In this document: one piece after another, positions 6,094 through 50,432 of the stretch
Layout: each line of letters opens with the position of its first letter
Numbering within the stretch: the stretch's first letter is position 1
DNA from: Phycisphaeraceae bacterium
GTDB lineage: Bacteria; Planctomycetota; Phycisphaerae; Phycisphaerales; SM1A02
Assembly: GCA_015709595.1 (NCBI GenBank)
Contig: CP054178.1
Coordinates: forward strand, 310,001-374,000
Direction: 5' to 3'
DNA length: 64,000 bases
Program-made: the position numbers and the translations under genes
The notes under the pieces: generated by a model
What the model was told of the DNA's origin: nothing
What the model saw: the letters and a program-made list of their open reading frames with translations, nothing else
Databases searched by the model: none

Positions 6094-6533
6094 TCAATAT
6101 GCGGATCAAGGACATGTTCTTCGACCGCCACGTCGTCATCGCGGCGGTCGACAACGCCAAGCGGAAGGTGCTCAGCAAGGCCGGCGCGTTCATCCGCACG
6201 GCGGCGAAGACGAGCATCCGCAAGCGCAAGGGGTCGGCTCCTCCCGGGGCCCCACCCCATTCGCACGAGGGCAGCCTGCGTCGGCTGATCCTCTTCGGGT
6301 ACGACAAGCCCAACGACTCGGTGGTCGTCGGGCCCGTGGGATTCAAGAAGAGTGACGCGCCCAGTGTCCTCGAGTATGGCGGTGACACCGTCGTGCTGCG
6401 GCGTGTGGGGGGCGGGGGGAAGCTCACATCACAGAAGGTCAAGATCGCGCCGCGGCCGTACATGGCTCCGGCGCTGGAGAAAGAGCGGCCGAAGCTGCCG
6501 CTGTTGTGGCGGAACTCCGTCAGGAAGGGCTGA
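6090..6533 (+). CDS. HK97 gp10-like neck/tail-completion protein
   Basis: The protein has 147 residues and starts at GTG 6090 (overlapping the previous stop) or ATG 6099. The pattern is an N-terminal helix with basic residues (KRKVLSKAGAFIRTAAKTSI), then the segment SAPPGAPPHSHEGSLRRLI, a Val-rich middle and a C-terminal RPYMAPALEKERPKLP. This corresponds to HK97 gp10-like minor structural proteins, which often contain the ending RPFL..A. They function at the head-tail junction. It lies directly before the tape-measure gene, which is an ordinary place for this family. Confidence 0.6.
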   Translation: MINMRIKDMFFDRHVVIAAVDNAKRKVLSKAGAFIRTAAKTSIRKRKGSAPPGAPPHSHEGSLRRLILFGYDKPNDSVVVGPVGFKKSDAPSVLEYGGDTVVLRRVGGGGKLTSQKVKIAPRPYMAPALEKERPKLPLLWRNSVRKG

Positions 6534-6539
6534 ACCACC

Positions 6540-8534
6540 GTGGCCGACACCCGTGGCATCCGAGCAGGCCGGGCCTTCGTTGAGCTGGGCGTCAGCGACA
6601 AGCTGTCGGCCGGGCTGAAGGCGGCCCAGAAGAAGCTCGAAGCCTTCGGCGAGGGGCTTCGGTCTATCGGCACCAAGATGGCGGGCATCGGCGTCGCGGC
6701 GATCACCGCGCTGCTCGGCACCGCGAAGGCCTTCTCCGACTCCGGCGATGCGCTCGACAAGATGAGCGCCCGCACGGGCGTGAGTGTCGAGGCCTTGAGC
6801 GAGCTCGGGTATGCAGCCGACCTCTCCGGCACGGACATGGAGACGCTGGAGAACGGCCTCCGCGTCATGCAGAAGACGCTTACGGAGGCGTCGCAAGGCT
6901 CCAAGGGAGCGAACGAGGCCCTCGCGCGGCTCGGGCTGACGGTGCAGGACCTGGCCAAGCTCTCTCCCGACGAGCAGTTTAAGCTCCTGGCCGATCGCAT
7001 CTCCCGCATCCAGGACCCCGCAGCCCGCGCCGCGATGGCGATGGAACTCTTCGGCAAGGCGGGGACGAAGCTCCTGCCGCTCATGGCCGACGGGGCCGCG
7101 GGCATCAACGAGATGCAGGAGCAGGCCCGAAAGCTCGGGCTCACCGTCAGCACTGAGACCGCCCGCGATGCCGCCGAACTCAACGATGCCCTCGGCACGC
7201 TCTGGAAGGTCCTCAAGCAGGGTGTCTTCACGATTGGCGGGGCGCTCGCCCCGACGATCAAGGACCTGACCGAGCGGATCACGCGGATCGTCGTGAGCGC
7301 CACGGCGTGGGTGAAGGCGAATAAGGAGACGGTCGTCTGGGCGCTCAAGGTCGCGGCGGCGGTCGCCGTCGCGGGGATCGCCATCGTCGGCCTGGGTTAC
7401 ATCATCTCGGGCATCGGCGCGGCGCTTGGAATCGTGGCCGCCGTCATCGGCGGGATCGGAACAGCATTCAGCCTCATCGGGGCTGCCATCGGCGCGATCC
7501 TGACGCCGGTCGGCCTGACCATCGCCGCGATCGTGGCGCTCGGCGGCACACTGCTGGTCGTCACCGGCGCAGGCGGCGAGGCCCTGTCGTGGCTGGCTGA
7601 GAAGTTCACCGAGTTGCGAGACTGGGTCGGCAAGGTGGTCGGCGGTATCTCCGATGCCCTCGCCGCCGGCGACATCGCACTCGCAGCCGAGATCCTGTGG
7701 CTGTCGCTGAAGGTCATCTGGCAGCAGGGCGTCGCGGCGCTCAACAAGGCGTGGCTCGGCGCGAAGGAGTTCTTCGTCTCCACGGCGTACTCCATGTGGT
7801 ATGGGGCGCTTGCCGCCGCCGAGATCGTCTTCCACGCCCTCGAGGTCGCGTGGATCGAGACCACCGCCTTCCTGTCAAAGACATGGACCAACTTCGCCAC
7901 CGGCTTCCAGATGATCTGGGAGGAGGCGTCGTCGTGGGTCGCCAAGCGGATGCTGGAGATCCAGGGGCTGTTTGACGACGGGCTCGATGTTGAAGCCGCC
8001 AAGAAGGCGGTGGATCAGCAGCTCGAGTCCCGCCTCGTCGAACTGGAGAACGCTGCCCAGCAGTCGGTGACCGCCCGCGAGAATCAGCGGGAGCAGCAGC
8101 GCCGCGATGCGGCGGCGATGCACGAAGCGACGCTGGCCGCGATCGGCCAGGACTTCGAGAACGCGCAGGAGGCACTGCGCAAGGACACCGAGGCCGGGCT
8201 CGCCGAATCGCAGGCCGCGCTCGACGCCGCGAAGCAGAAGCTCGCCGCCGCGATCGAGGAGGCCCGAAAGAAGCGCGAGGCCGCCGACGCCGAGAAGGGA
8301 CCTGGTCGTCCCCAGCGGGACATCCTCGCGGACTTCGAGGAGCGTCTGTCCGGCCTCGGGGCGGCCATCGGCAAAGGCATCAGCGTCACAGGGACGTTCA
8401 GCGCCGCTGCTGTCTCCGGCTTGGGCACGGGTGGCGACGCCGCCGAGCGCACCGCCAGCGCCACCGAGCAGACCGCCCGCAACACCAAGCGTCTGCTGGA
8501 TGCCAGCGTCGACAACGGACTGCGGTTCTCCTGA
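6540..8534 (+). CDS. phage tail tape measure protein
   Basis: The protein has 664 residues and a GTG start after a six-base gap. Residues 1-250 resemble the tape-measure domain of the TP901 type (SVEALSELGYAADLSGTDME, FGKAGTKLLPLMADGAAGI). They are followed by a strongly hydrophobic region (about 265-345) rich in Gly, Ala and Ile with several possible membrane helices. Then comes a long helical region with heptads (DFENAQEALRKDTEAGLAES, DAAKQKLAAAIEEARKKREA). The tape measure sets tail length and helps DNA cross the membrane. At about 1.54 angstroms per residue the protein would fit a tail near 100 nm; this is the general rule for the family, not a measurement. Confidence 0.82.
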   Translation: MADTRGIRAGRAFVELGVSDKLSAGLKAAQKKLEAFGEGLRSIGTKMAGIGVAAITALLGTAKAFSDSGDALDKMSARTGVSVEALSELGYAADLSGTDMETLENGLRVMQKTLTEASQGSKGANEALARLGLTVQDLAKLSPDEQFKLLADRISRIQDPAARAAMAMELFGKAGTKLLPLMADGAAGINEMQEQARKLGLTVSTETARDAAELNDALGTLWKVLKQGVFTIGGALAPTIKDLTERITRIVVSATAWVKANKETVVWALKVAAAVAVAGIAIVGLGYIISGIGAALGIVAAVIGGIGTAFSLIGAAIGAILTPVGLTIAAIVALGGTLLVVTGAGGEALSWLAEKFTELRDWVGKVVGGISDALAAGDIALAAEILWLSLKVIWQQGVAALNKAWLGAKEFFVSTAYSMWYGALAAAEIVFHALEVAWIETTAFLSKTWTNFATGFQMIWEEASSWVAKRMLEIQGLFDDGLDVEAAKKAVDQQLESRLVELENAAQQSVTARENQREQQRRDAAAMHEATLAAIGQDFENAQEALRKDTEAGLAESQAALDAAKQKLAAAIEEARKKREAADAEKGPGRPQRDILADFEERLSGLGAAIGKGISVTGTFSAAAVSGLGTGGDAAERTASATEQTARNTKRLLDASVDNGLRFS

Positions 8535-42463: not shown

Positions 42464-42736
42464 ATGGCCAAGGCGATTGTCGATCCGGGCGAACTCCGGC
42501 GGTTCGCGCACACGCTCAAGCAGTTCAACAATGACCTGCAGGCCCGCATGGCCGCGCTGCACGGTCAGATGATCGGGCTGAGCGCCAGTTGGCGCGATCA
42601 GGAGCAGCGCAAATTCGCCGAGGAGTTCGAGCAGACGATGAAGGTCGTCGCCCGCTTCATCGACGTGTCCAATGAGCACGTGCCATTCCTGCTGCGCAAG
42701 GCCGAGCGCGTGGAGGAGTATCTTCAGCAGCGGTAG
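42464..42736 (+). CDS. WXG100-like small helical protein (W-x-D variant)
   Basis: The protein has 90 residues, with ATG 42464 and GGGAGG just upstream. It is predicted as two helices: residues 8-40 (GELRRFAHTLKQFNNDLQAR) and 46-90 (QEQRKFAEEFEQTMKVVARF), joined at the turn ASWRDQ. The Trp43-Arg-Asp turn stands where WXG100 proteins such as EsxA have W-x-G, and Phe51-Ala52 follow eight residues later. Such proteins are dimeric substrates or chaperones of type VII secretion. No signal peptide. It is the first gene of the set ending at 49507, which includes an EssC/FtsK-like ATPase. Confidence 0.65.
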   Translation: MAKAIVDPGELRRFAHTLKQFNNDLQARMAALHGQMIGLSASWRDQEQRKFAEEFEQTMKVVARFIDVSNEHVPFLLRKAERVEEYLQQR

Positions 42737-42845
42737 CGGGCCGAGGCGCGAAACGCTGGGTATTGGCTGCTGGATGCCGTCTCCTTCCGTCCGGCTTCTG
42801 ATGACTTCCGACCTCTGATTGGCGACTCCTGTCTTCTTCCCTCAT

Positions 42846-43949
42846 ATGTCCAGTCGGGCTCACGTCAGTTCGATCGACGCCTTGCGGACGTTCCGAGCCG
42901 CGGTGCTCAAGTTCATCGACGCGGCGGACAAGGCGGTCAGCGAGGCGGAATCGGAGCTGCAGCGCGTGCAGGACTGGCTGACGAATGATCGACCGGTGTT
43001 CTGGAAGGGCGAACTGCGCCGCCGCGAGCAGGACGTGGCGCGGGCACGTGACGAGCTGCGCCGCGTGCAGTGGACGATCGGCGATCACAAACCGGCCGCG
43101 GTGGAGCAGAAGAAGGCGCTCAAGAAGGCGGAGGGGCGGCTGGAAGAGGCGCGGCAGAAGATCGCGGCCGTTCAGCGCTGGCGCGTGCTCTTCGACCGGG
43201 CGGTCAACGAGTACAAGGGGCAGATTCAGCCATGCCGCACCGCGTACGAAGTGGAGCTGCCCGAGGCGGCGGCGCTGCTGTCATCCCTGGCAGGGACGCT
43301 CGATGAATACCTGGCGTTGGCGCCGGCGGAGCTTGAAGGCGAGCTGCGCGAGAACCTGGAGCAGGCGCCGCCCTCGTCAGCCGCTCTGCCCTTCCTCGAC
43401 CGCCCCAAGCCCGCCCAGCGCGCGGCGGAGGCGGCCACGGTGGCCCGCGCCATCGCCATGAAGGCCGTGGTGCTCGACCAGAAGGCGCGGCAGCACCTGG
43501 AGATTCTGCGCGAGGTGTCGGATTTCGTCGTCGCCGCCGGGCACCCAAAGGGTGAGGTCATCCCGGTCTTTGACCGGCTGAAGGCGGAGCGCGAGGCGCC
43601 CAGGCCCGGCGACCTGGTGGTGTACGAGGATGGCGCGCTGCTGGCCGAGGCGATCTTTCTGCACCGACTGCCGGAAAAGGTGGCGGGAGACTCCGGCTGG
43701 TACGTCGGTTCTCTCGTCAGGGAGGACGATGCCCAGGCGCCCCGCGTGGCCCTGGGCGTGACGGCGTCGCGCCTGCTGGCCGCGAGGCCTGAACTGCGCG
43801 AGATCATGGCGTTGCCTCGCGGCTGGCTGGCCACCGTGGAACTGGGGCAGAGAGACGGGGATGGCCAGGGGCCCCGGATCGGACTGGTGCTCGATGAGCA
43901 TGAACGAAACCTGTGGGGGCGAGGACGTGAATCAGGGGCTTCGTCATGA
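42846..43949 (+). CDS. coiled-coil protein with W-K-G motif, type VII-like locus
   Basis: The protein has 367 residues. The first 110 are helical with a W-K-G at 53-55 (NDRPVFWKGELRRREQDVAR) between two helices, resembling an LXG/WXG-type hairpin, followed by a coiled coil (KKALKKAEGRLEEARQKIAA). Residues 150-230 hold Ala/Glu-rich helices, and the last 110 look like a separate beta-rich domain (APRPGDLVVYEDGALLAEAI, GWYVGSLVREDD). No signal or membrane segment. It precedes a second W-x-D protein by an overlapping start. Likely a substrate, chaperone or cytosolic component; no family recognised. Confidence 0.5.
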   Translation: MSSRAHVSSIDALRTFRAAVLKFIDAADKAVSEAESELQRVQDWLTNDRPVFWKGELRRREQDVARARDELRRVQWTIGDHKPAAVEQKKALKKAEGRLEEARQKIAAVQRWRVLFDRAVNEYKGQIQPCRTAYEVELPEAAALLSSLAGTLDEYLALAPAELEGELRENLEQAPPSSAALPFLDRPKPAQRAAEAATVARAIAMKAVVLDQKARQHLEILREVSDFVVAAGHPKGEVIPVFDRLKAEREAPRPGDLVVYEDGALLAEAIFLHRLPEKVAGDSGWYVGSLVREDDAQAPRVALGVTASRLLAARPELREIMALPRGWLATVELGQRDGDGQGPRIGLVLDEHERNLWGRGRESGASS

Positions 43950-44158
43950 GCGTCTCCGTCGGCCGCACCAAGCTCAAGAATGCCCTGCAGGATCTGCTCG
44001 TGAAATGGGAGGAGACGCGGGGCGTTTGGAATGATGTGCGCAGCCAGCAGTTCGCCCGTCAATACCTGGAGCCGCTCGATCCGGCGGTCCGCGCGGCGGT
44101 GGCGGCGATGGATCGCCTGGCGTCCCAGATCGCCCAGGCCGAACGCGATTGCGGGTAG
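43946..44158 (+). CDS. second W-x-D small helical protein
   Basis: The protein has 70 residues, starting at ATG 43946 in the last codons of the preceding gene. Its motif Trp28-Asn-Asp with Phe36-Ala37 (GVWNDVRSQQFARQY) repeats the W-x-D-x5-F-A-x2-[FY] spacing of the protein at 42464. The remainder is helix (DPAVRAAVAAMDRLASQIAQ). Two small WXG100-like partners next to an FtsK/SpoIIIE ATPase are typical of type VII loci. They may form a heterodimer. Confidence 0.6.
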   Translation: MSVSVGRTKLKNALQDLLVKWEETRGVWNDVRSQQFARQYLEPLDPAVRAAVAAMDRLASQIAQAERDCG

Positions 44159-44166
44159 TCGCTACC

Positions 44167-47100
44167 ATGCCTGATTCCGCGACCGTCGATGGAAGCCCCA
44201 TGCCTGACCTCCTGCTCTCCGACATCGAACGAACGGTGATCCGCAACCTGCTGCGGCTGTCCAGCGAACGCGATGCAGGCGAGATGGACATCACCCGTCG
44301 AGGCAAGGCGGAGCGGGCGGCCCTCGACAGGCAGTACGAAGAGCGGCGGCAGCGCCTGCAGCAGCGATTCGAGGCCGACGCCCGCAGCAACGAATCGGAG
44401 CATCAGGCCGCGCGCGAGGAGATCGAAGCACGCTTCGCCGAGGATGCCGCGAAGGACGAGAAGAAATACCGTTCACAGCGGTTCAAGATCAACGAACAGG
44501 CCGATCACGACGAGCTCCAGACGAAAAAGGCGTGGGAGGAGGCCAGGTGGACCGCGGAAACGGTGTACGAGGCCAAGGAGCCGCAGCCCAAGGAGGAGTT
44601 CGAGAAGACCGCCAAGGCGCTGCGCAGCCGGGCGGCGACGTTCCAGGCGATCGAGTCGGAGGCGCTGGAGATTCTCAGGGCCTGCCGCATTCGTCCCAGG
44701 CCGCACACGCCCCCCACGATCTCGATGGCGAGCGCCGAGGCGGGCGAGGCCGCCCGAGTGCTGGAGGACGAGGGCGCCAAGGCGTCGCAGCGACTCCAGG
44801 CGCTGCGCGACGCCTTCCTGCCTCACCTGTTCGAAGGCGCCAGGCCGTTCATGGCGGGATTGCTGCCGTTCGCGGCGGCGGCGGGCCTGGTCGGGTGGCT
44901 GACCGAGTGGAAGTTCAACAACTGGCTGCCGCACGCGGGAATCGCGGCGTTGGCGGCGGCGGTCGTCATGCTGCTGCTGCTGCACGCCCAGGCGCGGAAG
45001 AAGGCCCGGCGCCTGCACGCCGAGCTGCTCGACGCCCTCGCCTCCGCCCGCGCGGCCCGTGAGCGATGCCTCGTGCTGGCCTCGGAAAAGCGCGCCCGCG
45101 AGGAAGCGGAACTGCTCCGCCAGCGCGACGACGATCTGGCCCGCGCGCGGGAAACGCATGAACCGCGCCTGGAGAAAATCCGCACCGTCCGCCGGCAACT
45201 GCTGAAGGAGCTCGACGAGTGGTTCGCGCGACGGAAAGCGGAGTTGAAGGCCGCCCACGACGCCGATCTGGCCGAGTGCGACGCACGCCACGCCACGCGC
45301 CGGGCGGAGATCCTGTCCACCTACGAGTCGGATCGGGCCGCTCTCGAAGCCGAATCCACGGCACGCCGCGCCGCCATCGATGAGCGTGAGAGCCGGGAGT
45401 GGACGACGCTCGAGTCGCAGTGGCGTTCCGGCATGGCCGAGGTGCATCAACTGGTCGCCCGCCTGCGCGAGTTTGACGAGCGGCATGACCGGGCGTGGAA
45501 TGCGGCGGCCTTCGCCGACTGGTCGCCTCCGGGCACCTTCGCGCCCGCGGTGCGCTTCGGAGCGCTGGACGTCAACCTGGCCGCCATTCCCGGCGGCATC
45601 CCTCGCGATGAGCGATTGCTCGACGTTGGTCCGCTCCGCTTCGAGATGCCGGCGATTCTGGACTTCCCGCGCCGCTCCTCGATGCTCATCGAGGCCCACG
45701 ACGGTACGCGCGACCAGGCCGTTGCCACGCTGCAGAACGTGATGGCGCGGCTGCTCACGACCTTTCCGCCCGGCAAGGTGCGCTTCACCATCATCGATCC
45801 CGTGGGGCTGGGGCAGAACTTCGCCGGCTTCATGCATCTGGCCGATTACGAGGAGGCCTTCGTCGCCGACCGCATCTGGACGGAACCGCGCCACATCGAG
45901 CAGCGGCTCACCGACCTGACCGAGCACATGGAGAACGTGATCCAGAAGTACCTGCGCAACGATTTCGAGACGATCACGGACTACAACGAGCACGCGGGCG
46001 AGATCGCCGAGCCCTTTCGATTCCTCGTCATCGCCAACTTTCCCGTCAACTTCACCGAGACGGCGGCGCGACGGCTGGTGAGCATCATCGAAAGCGGTCC
46101 GCGCTGCGGCGTGTACACGCTGATCGCGGTGGACTCACGCCAGCCGCTGCCGCAGGGCGTGTCAATGGACGACCTGCGCAAGGGCGGCGTGGTGCTGGAG
46201 TCGCGCGATGGGCGTCTGACGATGCGGGACGACGATCTGGCCCGCCTGCCGCTGACGCTGGACCCGGCGCCGACACCCGACTTCCTCACCGACATGCTGC
46301 ACACGGTGGGAACGCACGCCAAGCACGCCTCGCGCGTGGAGGTGCCCTTCGAGCACGTGGTTCCCGCGCGTGAGGACTACTGGAGCGGTTCGAGCGATCG
46401 CGAAGTCGCGGTCCCGCTGGGGCGGGCCGGCGCCACCAAGCTTCAGCCCATGGTGCTGGGACGGGGCATCGCGCAGCACGCCCTCATCGCGGGCAAGACG
46501 GGGTCAGGCAAGTCCACGTTGCTGCACGTCATCATCACCAATCTCGCGCTCCACTACCGGCCCGACGAGGTGGAGTTCTACCTGGTGGACTTCAAGAAGG
46601 GCGTGGAGTTCAAGACCTACGCCACCCACGGGCTGCCCCACGCACGGGCGGTCGCGATCGAGTCCGACCGCGAGTTCGGGTTGAGCGTTCTTCAGCGTGT
46701 GGATGCGGAACTCAAGCGCCGAGGGGAAATCTTCCGCAAGCTCGGCGTGCAGGATCTCGCGGGATATCGGCGCACGGGCCATTCGGCTCGCATTCCCCGC
46801 ACGCTGCTCATCATCGACGAGTTCCAGGAGTTCTTCGTCGAGGACGACAAGCTGGCCCAGGACGCCGGGCTGCTGCTCGACCGGCTGGTCCGCCAGGGCC
46901 GCGCCTTCGGCATTCACGTGATCCTCGGCTCGCAGACGCTGGCGGGGGCGTACTCGCTGGCCCGCAGCACGATGGGTCAGATGGCGGTGCGGGTGGCGCT
47001 GCAGTGCAGCGAGGCGGACGCCATGCTGATCCTGGGTGACGACAACACCGCGGCACGCCTGCTTTCCCGTCCCGGCGAGGCCATTTACAACGACCAGGGC

Positions 47101-48111
47101 GGCCTGCTCGAGGGCAACAGCCCCTTCCAGATCGTCTGGCTGCCGGAGGAAGTGCGCGATCGGTATCTGCACGAGGTGTCCGAACTGGCGACGCGCGAGG
47201 GGTACGAGCCGCCCGAGCCGATGATCGTGTTTGAAGGCAACATCCCCGCCGACATCCGTCGCAACGCGGTGCTCCATCGCGTTCTGGCGTCCGGTCCGCC
47301 CGCGCAGCCGCCCGCCGCAGGCGTGGCGTGGATGGGCGATGCGATCGCCATCAAGGATCCCACCGCCGCGGTGTTCCGCCGCCAGAGCGGATGCAACCTG
47401 CTCATCGTCGGCCAGCGTGAGGAGTTCGCGGTGGCCATTCAGGAGGCGGGGATCGTCGGGCTCGCCGCACAGACGCCCGCCGACCGGGGCGTGTTCTACG
47501 TGCTCGACGGTCTGTCGTCGGATTCGCCCCACGCCGGTTCGTTCGAACGGCTGGCCCGCCATCTGCCGCACGACCTGCGCGTGGTGGGATGGCATGACGT
47601 AGAAGGCGCCATGGCCGAGATCGGCGAGGAGCTGGACCGCCGCCGCGCCGCGGGACGACCCGACCCGGCCCCCATCTACCTGTTCATCTGCGGACTGCAC
47701 CGCTTCCGCATGCTCCGGCAGGCGGAAGAGTTCGGCTTCATGTCCTCGTCCTCGGGTGACGAAGGGAAATCGCGAGGCCCGGACAAGATCTTCGGCGAAC
47801 TGCTGCGCGACGGCCCGCCGCTGGGCATGCACGTCATCGCCTGGTGCGACACCCCCAACAACCTGTCGCGCGTGCTCGACCGCGGCGCCATGCGTGAGTT
47901 CGATCTGCGTGTGCTCTTCCAGATGAGCACGACGGATTCCAGCAACCTGATCGACACGCCCATCGCGGGCGCCCTGGGCAACACCCGCGCCATCCTGCAC
48001 AGTGAGGATCTGGGGCTGCTGGAGAAGTTCCGCCCCTACGCCACGCTTGACGAACACTGGGTCGCCGAAATCGGCAAGCAACTGCGCGGTCAGCCGGCCA
48101 ACGTGCAATAG
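44167..48111 (+). CDS. EssC/FtsK-SpoIIIE-like membrane ATPase with three ATPase-like domains
   Basis: The protein has 1314 residues from ATG 44167 (ATG 44200 is an alternative). In order it has a charged coiled coil (1-190), two membrane helices (about 228-246 and 256-274), a second coiled coil (280-450), a degenerate ATPase-like domain without Walker A (about 480-680), and a complete FtsK/SpoIIIE domain. The last carries Walker A GKTGSGKST at 776-784, Walker B RTLLIIDEFQEFF near 875-888 and IHVILGSQTLAGAY. A third domain (about 1055-1300) again lacks a P-loop (GCNLLIVGQREEF). Three tandem ATPase domains after two membrane helices is the EccC/EssC plan of type VII secretion motors. DNA translocation is the alternative. 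Confidence 0.75.
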   Translation: MPDSATVDGSPMPDLLLSDIERTVIRNLLRLSSERDAGEMDITRRGKAERAALDRQYEERRQRLQQRFEADARSNESEHQAAREEIEARFAEDAAKDEKKYRSQRFKINEQADHDELQTKKAWEEARWTAETVYEAKEPQPKEEFEKTAKALRSRAATFQAIESEALEILRACRIRPRPHTPPTISMASAEAGEAARVLEDEGAKASQRLQALRDAFLPHLFEGARPFMAGLLPFAAAAGLVGWLTEWKFNNWLPHAGIAALAAAVVMLLLLHAQARKKARRLHAELLDALASARAARERCLVLASEKRAREEAELLRQRDDDLARARETHEPRLEKIRTVRRQLLKELDEWFARRKAELKAAHDADLAECDARHATRRAEILSTYESDRAALEAESTARRAAIDERESREWTTLESQWRSGMAEVHQLVARLREFDERHDRAWNAAAFADWSPPGTFAPAVRFGALDVNLAAIPGGIPRDERLLDVGPLRFEMPAILDFPRRSSMLIEAHDGTRDQAVATLQNVMARLLTTFPPGKVRFTIIDPVGLGQNFAGFMHLADYEEAFVADRIWTEPRHIEQRLTDLTEHMENVIQKYLRNDFETITDYNEHAGEIAEPFRFLVIANFPVNFTETAARRLVSIIESGPRCGVYTLIAVDSRQPLPQGVSMDDLRKGGVVLESRDGRLTMRDDDLARLPLTLDPAPTPDFLTDMLHTVGTHAKHASRVEVPFEHVVPAREDYWSGSSDREVAVPLGRAGATKLQPMVLGRGIAQHALIAGKTGSGKSTLLHVIITNLALHYRPDEVEFYLVDFKKGVEFKTYATHGLPHARAVAIESDREFGLSVLQRVDAELKRRGEIFRKLGVQDLAGYRRTGHSARIPRTLLIIDEFQEFFVEDDKLAQDAGLLLDRLVRQGRAFGIHVILGSQTLAGAYSLARSTMGQMAVRVALQCSEADAMLILGDDNTAARLLSRPGEAIYNDQGGLLEGNSPFQIVWLPEEVRDRYLHEVSELATREGYEPPEPMIVFEGNIPADIRRNAVLHRVLASGPPAQPPAAGVAWMGDAIAIKDPTAAVFRRQSGCNLLIVGQREEFAVAIQEAGIVGLAAQTPADRGVFYVLDGLSSDSPHAGSFERLARHLPHDLRVVGWHDVEGAMAEIGEELDRRRAAGRPDPAPIYLFICGLHRFRMLRQAEEFGFMSSSSGDEGKSRGPDKIFGELLRDGPPLGMHVIAWCDTPNNLSRVLDRGAMREFDLRVLFQMSTTDSSNLIDTPIAGALGNTRAILHSEDLGLLEKFRPYATLDEHWVAEIGKQLRGQPANVQ

Positions 48112-48220
48112 CGCATCCAACGCATCGCCGCGGCTTGCACTGGGAAGACACCTGTGGTTCACTATCGGCGCCCTGATGGCGCCCGACGCGGGTTGCCGGT
48201 CCTTCCTGTGGAGAAACAAC

Positions 48221-49507
48221 ATGGCCAAGCCCGAACTGACGAGCGCCTGGTGGTCGAAGCACGGCCCCAAAACCCTCAAGACCGGACTGGGCGAGGCGCT
48301 TCGCGCCTACGAGGTGGAGTTCAAGTCATTCCAGTCGTATGCCGCCCAGCCGGGACACGACCACGAAGCCGTTTTCAAGAAGTTGGAGGACGCGCTGGAT
48401 CACGTGAGTGACACGGTCAAGAAGGCCGAGGGCATGTGCAACAAACTGCTGCACAAGGACACGCTGGCCGCGCTGGCCGAGTTCAGGAAGACGCTCATTC
48501 CGCGTGAGGCCCAGCAGTGCATGAAACTCGCCCAGCAGGCCAAGGCGGGGTTCGAAGGCCAACTCAAGCAGATCGGCGTGGAGATCAAGTCGCTTGAGAC
48601 GGAGATCCGCGTCAAGGAGAGAACCATCGACGGCTGGGTCGAGGAGATGACCTCGCTGGAGGCCGAAAGCCGCGTCAAGGCCAAGGACATCATCGCGCAC
48701 GCCACAGCGCAGAACCAGTCGATGGTGTCGCGTACGTTCGACGACGCCGCCCGGATCGGTGATGACATGATGAAGGTCTTTCAGACCGCCAAGGCGCAGG
48801 TGCCCAAGATGGCCGCCGACATCCGCAAGCAGTGGCCGGTGAAGCGTGGCGACAACGTGGTGCCCAAGGGCCACAACTTCGAGAAGCAACTGCAGACGCT
48901 CGACATGCTGGTGATGAACTGGGACGTGAAGTTCGGCACGATCGAAAAACTCAACGAGGCGTTCACGTCCACGTGGAAGACGATCGAATCGGCCCGCACC
49001 GGCTCGCTGAACTCGCGCGATGAGTACGTCCGCATCGTCGAGGCCGACGCCGAGCGCCTGGCGGACGGGCTGACGCGCGTCAACGCCACCGAGGCGCAGC
49101 TGGGGGTCACGCTCTCCGGCATGGGCGAGATGCTGACGAGGACGGAGAAGGCGGTCGGTGAGGAGCGGGCCGCGGAACTGCGCAAGGCCGCTGCCGCGCT
49201 TGTCAGCGCGCAGGGACTGCACAAGCAGTTCACCAAGGAGCTGCTGGCGTTCGAGAAGACCTACGAGAGCACCATCGGCGGCTATCCCCCGTTCGTCAAC
49301 GACAAGGACAAGGACTTCGCCCGCCCGCTCAAGAACATCAAGGCGATGGGCAAGTTCATCGATGACAACAAGCAGGGCGCGCTGGACTCCTCGAAGAAGA
49401 TCAAGGAGCGGGAGGCCCGGCTCAAGGAACTGGTGGCCGGCGCGGTGCAGGACAAGAAATCAGGGGGCGATTCCCCGAAGACCCGGCCGCGATCGACGTC
49501 GCGGTGA
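48221..49507 (+). CDS. coiled-coil protein, last gene of the type VII-like set
   Basis: The protein has 428 residues from ATG 48221. It begins KPELTSAWWSKHGPKTLKTG and is almost wholly helical, with heptads and many Lys/Glu residues (KLEDALDHVSDTVKKAEGMC, KSLETEIRVKERTIDGWVEE). It has no membrane segment or signal peptide, and a Lys/Ser-rich basic tail. An LXG-like or chaperone role is possible because it directly follows the EssC-like gene by 109 bases; a terminal toxin domain is not recognisable. No family found. Confidence 0.5.
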   Translation: MAKPELTSAWWSKHGPKTLKTGLGEALRAYEVEFKSFQSYAAQPGHDHEAVFKKLEDALDHVSDTVKKAEGMCNKLLHKDTLAALAEFRKTLIPREAQQCMKLAQQAKAGFEGQLKQIGVEIKSLETEIRVKERTIDGWVEEMTSLEAESRVKAKDIIAHATAQNQSMVSRTFDDAARIGDDMMKVFQTAKAQVPKMAADIRKQWPVKRGDNVVPKGHNFEKQLQTLDMLVMNWDVKFGTIEKLNEAFTSTWKTIESARTGSLNSRDEYVRIVEADAERLADGLTRVNATEAQLGVTLSGMGEMLTRTEKAVGEERAAELRKAAAALVSAQGLHKQFTKELLAFEKTYESTIGGYPPFVNDKDKDFARPLKNIKAMGKFIDDNKQGALDSSKKIKEREARLKELVAGAVQDKKSGGDSPKTRPRSTSR

Positions 49508-49817: not shown

Positions 49818-50432
49818 ATGAAAGCAACGCACATCGCTTCGCTGGTCGCCGCGGGCCTGCTGGCCGTGACCGGCGCGGCCCACGCTGACACCTATGGCAA
49901 CACCAACCCGTTCGAGACGCAGTCGAGCCACTCACCCAACTTCGTTCTGGGCGTCAGGGTGAACATCCCGGTCAATGGCTTTACCGTGACGAGTTTCGGG
50001 ATGATGTACGGGCACGAGAACTTCACCCCCAACACCTCGAACGCCATCTTCGGTCTCTACACCTCTGATGGCAATGGTCTGCCCCAGACGCTGGTGGCGG
50101 TGACCAACCCGATCAACCTCAACGCGCAGCAGACGTACGACAACATTGCGTTCACGTCGACGCCGACCATCAACTCTGGCACCTACTGGATGATGGCGTT
50201 GTACGAATCACTGGCCAGCCCGCGCATGGGCCTGCAGGATCCCAACTCGCTGGTGGCGTACTGGTCCAACCCCTACGCCAACGGCATGCCAGCCACCGCT
50301 CCGGCCATCACCACCTACACCGGCCAGAACTTCAACTACTGGATCAACGGCAGCGTCGTGCCGGCCCCGGGGGCTCTGGCGGCCTTCGGCGTGATGGGAC
50401 TGCTCGGCGTTCGCCGGCGGCGGTCCAACTGA
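49818..50432 (+). CDS. PEP-CTERM-like secreted protein
   Basis: The protein has 204 residues. A Sec signal (IASLVAAGLLAVTGAAHA) precedes a beta-rich, Asn/Thr-rich body (PNTSNAIFGLYTSDGNGLPQ), and the C-terminus is a sorting tag of short Pro motif, membrane helix and basic end: VVPAPGALAAFGVMGLLGVR then RRRSN. This is the PEP-CTERM pattern of planctomycetes, in which an exosortase cuts the protein and joins it to the surface. No exosortase is in the window. AAAGGAGAG lies before ATG 49818. Confidence 0.72.
   Translation: MKATHIASLVAAGLLAVTGAAHADTYGNTNPFETQSSHSPNFVLGVRVNIPVNGFTVTSFGMMYGHENFTPNTSNAIFGLYTSDGNGLPQTLVAVTNPINLNAQQTYDNIAFTSTPTINSGTYWMMALYESLASPRMGLQDPNSLVAYWSNPYANGMPATAPAITTYTGQNFNYWINGSVVPAPGALAAFGVMGLLGVRRRRSN

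Follow-up and report, generated by a model that had tools for sequence, protein, structure and literature searches.

Co-retention of WXG100-like proteins, a helical hairpin protein and an EccC/EssC-type ATPase as a four-gene module in Planctomycetota

The genome of the Phycisphaeraceae bacterium deposited as GCA_015709595.1 (a single contig of 3.84 Mb, CP054178.1, 99% complete) contains a group of genes in which two small WXG100-like proteins are encoded alongside a large ATPase resembling the motors of type VII secretion systems (T7SSs). The group lies within positions 310001-374000, a stretch of 64,000 nucleotides that is referred to here as the window and that supplies the numbering used below. 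Five open reading frames (ORFs) had been proposed in an initial annotation made from the sequence alone, and all five were confirmed on the forward strand (Table 1). The first four are termed A to D; the stop codon of B is overlapped by the ATG of C.

Table 1. Positions of the A to D genes, their features and the adjoining gene in the window
Feature	Position	Strand	Basis
Gene A, 90-residue WXG100-family protein with W-R-D turn	42464..42736	+	PF06013 match; PDB profile matches
Turn motif W43-R44-D45 of A	42590..42598	+	Read from sequence
Gene B, 367-residue protein	42846 (ATG)..43949 (stop)	+	AlphaFold2 model; relatives in loci and genomes
Imm33-like domain (PF24719), C-terminus of B	43566..43838	+	32.1 bits, cut-off 27
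Gene C, 70-residue shortened WXG100-like paralogue of A	43946..44158	+	Profile-profile match to A family
Turn motif W28-N29-D30 of C	44027..44035	+	Read from sequence
Gene D, 1314-residue EccC/EssC-type ATPase	44167..48111	+	FtsK_SpoIIIE match; NCBIfam scores; model
Predicted transmembrane hairpin of D, residues ~227-247 and 252-278	44845..45000	+	Hydropathy scans
First RecA-like domain of D, without conserved P-loop	45679..46206	+	Model; column counts
Central motor domain of D, residues ~747-979	46405..47103	+	Model; match to FtsK, EssC and EccC motors
Walker A, GKTGSGKS	46492..46515	+	First K is R in 2/81; seven other positions invariant
Walker B, LIIDEF	46807..46824	+	DEF in 81/81
Third RecA-like domain of D, without conserved P-loop	47122..48039	+	Model; column counts
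Fifth gene, 428-residue coiled-coil-like protein	48221-49507	+	ORF; 110 bp downstream of D

Relatives of these genes were drawn from the best 80 of at least 488 tblastn-confirmed D relatives on genome contigs. The two small proteins carry the same turn motif, W-x-D-x5-F-A-x2-[FY], exactly as had been noticed at the outset, with x5-F-A-x2-F following the tryptophan-containing turn in A and x5-F-A-x2-Y following that in C. The replacement of the WXG glycine by aspartate, also noted initially, extends to 61 of 63 A relatives (in the other two the motif is cut at a contig end) and to all 67 C relatives, which come from 67 of the 80 loci. A W-x-G turn was not found among these 63 A and 67 C sequences, and in the length-filtered sets, which include the window, W-x-D is present in 51 of 51 A and 48 of 48 C proteins. 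The change in the turn is family-wide, and no quirk of the window locus.

A exceeds the Pfam cut-off for WXG100 proteins (PF06013, 35.1 against 27.3 bits) and falls below the stricter NCBIfam cut-off of TIGR03930 (30.1 against 44.85 bits); the Pfam family is matched by all 37 sequences of alignment A4, which comprises the A sequences of the window and of 36 loci out of the 63 where an A ORF is present. The helical hairpins that were assumed for the small proteins find support at the level of profiles. Searched against the PDB, the A profile matches solved WXG100 hairpins, the best being HP0062 of Helicobacter pylori (6e-13), followed by Bacillus anthracis EsxB (9e-10) and Staphylococcus aureus EsxA (2e-5), while the C profile matches S. 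aureus EsxA (E 0.0014). C alone has no Pfam or NCBIfam match, and a WXG100 match at E <= 0.1 is obtained for 8 of 43 C sequences (best 8.8e-4). The C and A families can be aligned at the W-x-D turn by hhalign over 41 columns (probability 80%, E 1.3e-5, the latter being the value of one single comparison). This separate comparison was used in place of the merging of iterated A and C profiles, which was rejected as evidence of kinship because its first round already held a cross-hit and it was therefore not independent. On account of the Pfam and PDB matches of A, the alignment of C with A, and the matches of C to EsxA and WXG100, A and C are a diverged WXG100 pair.

B is modelled by AlphaFold2 (mean predicted local distance difference test score, pLDDT, 85.2; predicted template modelling score 0.51) as two helices, residues 10-78 and 82-158, which form a long antiparallel hairpin and are followed by a C-terminal alpha/beta domain. 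Its relatives, found in 65 of the 80 loci, have in common ~165 residues that form a helical core. The W-K-G that the initial annotation pointed out in B is present, but it was rejected as a third WXG motif: the tryptophan is conserved and the glycine is not, and in the model it sits in the middle of helix 10-78, away from the turn at 78-82. No specific structural relative of the hairpin was found with VIA-align, for which the best Z of 10.9 lies below the tool's informative level for long helices; the best matches were tied between YscO, a PI3K coiled coil, HlyD, Vipp1, TolC and others, and no PPE or EspB chain is among those listed. When the B profile was compared with the PDB, the best match was to an SMC coiled coil (E 0.017). 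The Imm33-like domain at the C-terminus is regarded as optional, because only 8 of 63 aligned B sequences, the window included, carry it. PMC3482391 counts Imm33 among the immunity families.

D was described initially as a membrane ATPase of the EssC/EccC plan, and this description is upheld by its two hydrophobic segments, its profile matches and its multi-domain fold. An N-terminal coiled-coil-like region is followed by a predicted transmembrane (TM) hairpin, a second coiled-coil-like region and three RecA-like domains. The charged, repetitive regions flanking the hairpin are taken as putative coiled coil. Among 74 relatives whose N-terminal region is complete, 71 have two hydrophobic peaks at the position of the hairpin (~227-278), two have one and one has three; in a stricter scan, 58 of 72 relatives have two peaks, 13 have one and one has none. 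Across 81 sequences the Walker motifs are conserved in the central domain alone, and the outer two RecA-like domains lack a conserved P-loop.

The affinity of D is to EccC and EssC by several measures. It matches FtsK_SpoIIIE of Pfam with 121 bits, and its NCBIfam scores are 104 bits for EccCa, 99 for EssC and 92 for EccCb, against 31 for FtsK. All of these remain under the equivalog cut-offs (104 of 509 bits for EccCa and 99 of 778 for EssC). Sequence comparison with the PDB gave 125 bits for TcEccC, 108 for EccC5, 76 for YukB and 52 for FtsK. The model of D, which covers residues 480-1314 (pLDDT 88), was matched by VIA-align across two or more domains to EssC (4lya; Z 29.2, root-mean-square deviation (rmsd) 6.3, 493 residues), EccC (4n1a; Z 29.0, rmsd 7.2, 500 residues) and TcEccC (4nh0; Z 28.6, rmsd 14.1, 714 residues).

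The closest relatives of D among the matches listed are from Phycisphaerales and other Planctomycetota, and a few of those matches are titled Lentisphaerae, Pedosphaera, Verrucomicrobiales, Alphaproteobacteria or "bacterium". Sufficient sequence to judge A, B and C upstream of D is available in 66 of the 80 loci, and all three genes stand beside D in 60 of these. At one further locus near a contig edge (L074) B and C are beside D. Wherever all four genes are present (63 loci), they have the order A-B-C-D and a common strand. Since A exceeds the Pfam cut-off, A and C align at the turn and the gene set recurs in order, the module is more than a chance arrangement.

The distribution of the four genes was surveyed in 294 Planctomycetota genomes, with D called present at a match above 100 bits (the best FtsK reached ~63 bits). 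D was found in 41 genomes, A in 40, B in 39 and C in 43, and all four in 39. Three of the C matches are weak (G005, G064 and G107, the last lying within A), and without them C is found in 40. Outside the 41 genomes with D there is no A or B, and only two weak C matches. Two of the D calls (G271 and G279) consist of a C-terminal piece at a contig edge. Among the genomes with D, A is missing from G219 (80% complete), B from G219 and G107, and C from G107. Hypergeometric probabilities of co-occurrence with D are about 1e-48 for A and for C and about 1e-46 for B, values that treat genomes as independent and serve as a guide only.

This co-retention does not depend on linkage. When positions were compared by hand in 40 genomes, A and D were linked in 26, apart in eight (G024, G087, G105, G137, G152, G194, G216 and G251) and undecided, being at contig edges, in six (G076, G124, G139, G271, G279 and G280). 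The distance between A and D amounts to tens of kb or more in all eight dispersed genomes. In G105, a single contig of 6.76 Mb, D lies at ~0.23, A at ~0.71, C at ~1.94 and B at ~2.66 Mb; D is ~0.7 Mb from A-B-C in G152 and ~180 kb from B-C-A in G251, and in G216 A and B share one contig, C and D another. That the genes are retained together without lying together argues strongly for a mutual dependence of the four proteins. The dispersed cases are, however, not eight independent events, because seven belong to one family of the taxonomy (f30). With G107 and five loci with D alone (see below) as the exceptions, the four genes nearly always share the same fate within the phylum, being retained or lost as a set, also where they have been moved apart. 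In one genome, G076, two D-like matches occur on different contigs (C126 and C138).

These observations suggest that A, B, C and D together form one machine in the inner membrane, akin to the core of type VII secretion systems and with the A-C pair as a probable exported substrate of D, a reading to which we would give very nearly an even chance. It builds on the homology, domain plan and catalytic motifs described above, on the TM hairpin indicated by hydropathy, on the modelled fold of B and on the co-retention of the four genes. D would be anchored in the inner membrane by its hairpin and is probably hexameric, with ATP hydrolysed in the central domain. By analogy with EccC, the outer RecA-like domains are most likely receptors for partners or substrates. 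A WXG100-type pair of A and C would be D's obligate partner and, probably, the substrate that it exports. The hairpin of B, with arms of ~70-77 residues, may connect this pair with the coiled-coil regions of D, acting as an adaptor or chaperone, or may exit with it. Finally the A-C pair, with or without B, would pass through or beside the hairpins of D, powered by the central domain, such that protein would be the substance moved across the inner membrane. It may even be that these four proteins suffice for a type VII-like export machine of diderms, minimal and yet complete, in which a membrane-anchored motor that needs no channel proteins of the EccB/EccD/EssB type is combined with the W-x-D pair and with B as adaptor or exported shaft; this we propose tentatively, and at rather less than an even chance.

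A number of observations weigh against export by such a machine, and they are set out here and in the following paragraphs with the alternatives on which they bear. The top single-domain fold match of D is the motor of FtsK, solved with DNA (6t8b; Z 31.5, rmsd 2.5, 275 residues). Judged from the model, the single domain is closest to FtsK and the multi-domain plan closest to EssC/EccC, with a different domain placement. D could then be a translocase of the FtsK or TcpA type that moves chromosomal or plasmid DNA, with the small proteins as accessories. We consider this very unlikely, since a separate FtsK (206 bits) is encoded in the genome and FtsK scores far lower than EccC/EssC on the sequence profiles of D. 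In addition, a tree of 38 motor domains, including 21 planctomycete D (the window and 20 of the 80 loci), places D on the EccC side of a branch with support 96/93, with planctomycete FtsK and a TcpA-like ATPase beyond it. Nine planctomycete FtsK form one clade without D (99/97), and the planctomycete D sequences form another (99/98.8), together with a relative from Caballeronia that is described below. Clustering with DNA-pumping FtsK, one of the outcomes by which the initial annotation would have had its proposal refuted, was not found outright, yet a grouping of D and FtsK against EccC is not rejected by the approximately unbiased (AU) test (p 0.151) and the tree contains long branches. Chromosomal FtsK is like D in its motor fold and differs in its separate clade and in having no WXG100 partners, which are not known to be a feature of FtsK.

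The usual partners of an EccC/EssC motor are also missing. Searches of the window's own genome gave only sub-cut-off matches of ~14 bits for EccB (PF05108) and YukC (PF10140) and none for YukD (PF08817); EsaA, EssA, EccE and MycP were not searched. Of the partner genes (EccB, EccD, EsaA and EssB-type) that the initial annotation did not see at the locus, EccB and EssB/YukC give no match over the cut-off anywhere in this genome. A second WXG100 protein over the cut-off was not found in this genome either, and there is no known outer-membrane exit for the module. It might be supposed that the locus is part of a standard T7SS whose remaining parts lie elsewhere, and parts can indeed unlink, as the eight of 40 genomes with A and D far apart illustrate. 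Such an arrangement is highly unlikely in a 99% complete, single-contig genome with these search results, and D itself remains under the EccC and EssC equivalog cut-offs. Because the tested core partners are missing, the module is not to be filed as a T7SS; it is T7SS-like by descent of two core parts. The divergent type VII-like secretion locus of the initial annotation survives as a module of WXG100 proteins and an EccC/EssC-type motor, shorn of the W-K-G reading of B and of the fifth gene.

Other findings concern the substrate and the setting of the motor. YxxxD/E is an export motif of T7SSa substrates. It follows the turn in none of 51 A and none of 48 C proteins, and is found within the last 60 residues in 6 of 65 B sequences. 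Mean column identity is 60% for A and 58% for the three RecA-like domains of D, and conservation at the level of these domains is as compatible with A being an internal subunit as with its being a substrate. D lacks A, B and C beside it in 5 of the 66 loci (L019, L015, L052, L061 and L069), which may be unlinked systems or second copies, and any further neighbour family is confined to at most 8 of the 80 loci. Lastly, two models in PADLOC's defence collection find a match in the motor of D: SspH with 91 bits, and mad8 with 72 bits over most of its length (positions 2-286 of 314).

A relative of the module is found on plasmid pSBC2-5 of Caballeronia sp. SBC2 (L097), the only plasmid-borne A obtained in a plasmid search. 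The gene order there is VWA, a WXG100 protein with a W-Q-D turn, a 436-residue protein, two small proteins and the ATPase, followed by CARF, VWA, PP2C, kinase, AAA, ParA and DUF2357 genes. The WXG100 protein scores 83.5 bits with the A profile, the 436-residue protein shows a weak similarity to B of coiled-coil type (14.6 bits), and neither small protein (113 and 76 residues) matches the C profile. The ATPase, of 927 residues, is 27% identical to D over residues 334-1276. It has no TM hairpin, nor has the D-like ATPase of L121 (MT836827.1), a gut-derived scaffold deposited as an unverified phage; the weak single hydropathy peaks of the two (at 154 and 588 in the former and at 223 in the latter) are read as probable RecA strands. 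As neither outgroup ATPase has the hairpin, membrane anchoring is not essential to the motor.

The main rival is a membrane-tethered motor that does not secrete, in which the WXG100-like pair and the hairpin protein would be permanent subunits that regulate the ATPase or target it to an internal complex of protein or nucleic acid, for instance in defence, as with the relatives linked to CoCoNuTs. This is possible, though we incline to doubt it. In its favour are the Caballeronia ATPase, which lacks a TM hairpin and has VWA, CARF, PP2C, kinase and DUF2357 genes beside it, the strong conservation of A, the failure to find an export motif, cargo or channel, and the two PADLOC matches. However, the TM hairpin is present in 71 of 74 planctomycete D relatives, and the defence-type neighbours are not shared: a comparison of the 80 loci with the first VWA copy, PP2C, CARF, AAA, ParA and DUF2357 of Caballeronia gave nothing at E 1e-4, and the kinase found a match only at L083 (1.7e-5). 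The PADLOC matches, moreover, fall on an FtsK-type motor that is common to many systems, and no PADLOC model is matched by A, B or C below E 0.01.

The export reading, like its rival, has to be seen beside close precedents that the initial annotation missed, namely an operon linked to CoCoNuTs (PMC11090510) and HP0062 with its WRD turn (PMC3397514). According to passages of PMC11090510, CoCoNuT-linked operons are an extension of Type III-A CoCoNuTs and encode an EssC-like FtsK with an N-terminal coiled coil, no transmembrane domain and three ATPase domains, of which the central alone is predicted to be active, alongside a coiled-coil nuclease and two WXG100 proteins, of which only one has the motif. 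The module resembles this operon in its three RecA-like domains with Walker motifs in the central one only, in an N-terminal coiled coil (for D, judged from sequence) and, in the one Caballeronia member compared, in an A-like W-x-D protein in first place and a common motor clade. The operon differs in that its ATPase is soluble and in its TerY-P-type, CARF, DUF2357 and McrBC-type flanks, which have no counterpart in the planctomycete loci. As WXG100/FtsK operons had been noted before as possible stand-alone secretion systems, in the same passages of PMC11090510, the module adds a new form, membrane-anchored and standing alone, to a kind of operon that is already on record.

In H. pylori, HP0062 (structure 3FX7) is a helical hairpin with WRD at the bend, described in part of PMC3397514 together with an FtsK/SpoIIIE gene cluster, and an excerpt of PMC4978471 refers to a "WXG100 secretion system" cluster (HP0062, HP0066). 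HP0062 is like A in its WRD turn, in being its best solved match and in its FtsK/SpoIIIE cluster, HP0062 being the member of that cluster compared here. It is reported as a homodimer, whereas in planctomycetes A is accompanied by a shorter paralogue, C. The W-x-D turn may thus mark a branch of WXG100 proteins in Gram-negative bacteria.

The ESX and Ess systems (T7SSa and T7SSb) have, like the module, WXG100 proteins and a multi-domain FtsK-type ATPase with a TM hairpin. The module differs from them in its W-x-D in place of W-x-G, in the absence of EccB, YukC and YukD over the cut-off, and in the degenerate-active-degenerate order of the D domains; and where their ATPase has FHA domains, as stated in passages of PMC11090510, D has a coiled-coil-like region instead. 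T7SSc to T7SSj share with the module a core of EssC and WXG100 proteins, to which lineage-specific partners are added, and are given as restricted to Bacillota and Actinomycetota in sections of PMC11217815, a term search of whose main text did not find "planctomyc". Rows of a toxin-family table in PMC3482391 hold both T7SS (WXG) export and planctomycetes, with no tie between them in the rows concerned. A literature search found no description of the cassette in planctomycetes, although a mention inside the body of a paper is possible.

If the export reading is correct, the minimal four-protein machine would represent a subtype outside T7SSa-j, held by natural selection as a unit even when its genes are scattered. 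With the co-inherited parts defined as four genes, beside which no fifth family recurs, the existence of a Gram-negative relative of the T7SS can be put to the test directly in planctomycete culture. The cassette is also tied to the W-R-D protein of H. pylori and to the operon linked to CoCoNuTs in what looks like one W-x-D branch of WXG100 proteins, whose related motors occur in membrane-anchored and soluble forms.

The ORFs directly downstream of the cassette vary between loci, and the fifth gene, which had been counted as a member, was rejected as a component. It has no relative at any of the 80 loci, and when 61 genomes of the order were compared it occurred in its own only, the other 60 being without a relative; it is possibly a lineage-specific cargo or an unrelated orphan.

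No A or D relative was confirmed on viral contigs, and D is represented in phage records by partial matches only, the best being L121. That scaffold carries a ThiF-family gene and the D-like ATPase (motor profile 195 bits), the first domain of which looks duplicated. It also encodes, at 6322-7371, a 349-residue protein with a W-N-D N-terminus and a HELGH metallopeptidase-like motif. The protein matches the C profile with 14.7 bits (E 4e-5, valid for the ORFs of that scaffold only) and has a sub-cut-off, YwqH-like match in Pfam (E 0.007). That it might be an exported effector is only a suggestion, and L121 was not retained as strong support for exported effectors, weakened as it is by these two matches.

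Within the window, a reading frame at 49818-50432 begins with a signal-like N-terminus (MKATHIASL...) and has the C-terminal sequence VVPAPGALAAFGVMGLLGVRRRRSN, which we take to resemble a PEP-CTERM-type sorting signal.

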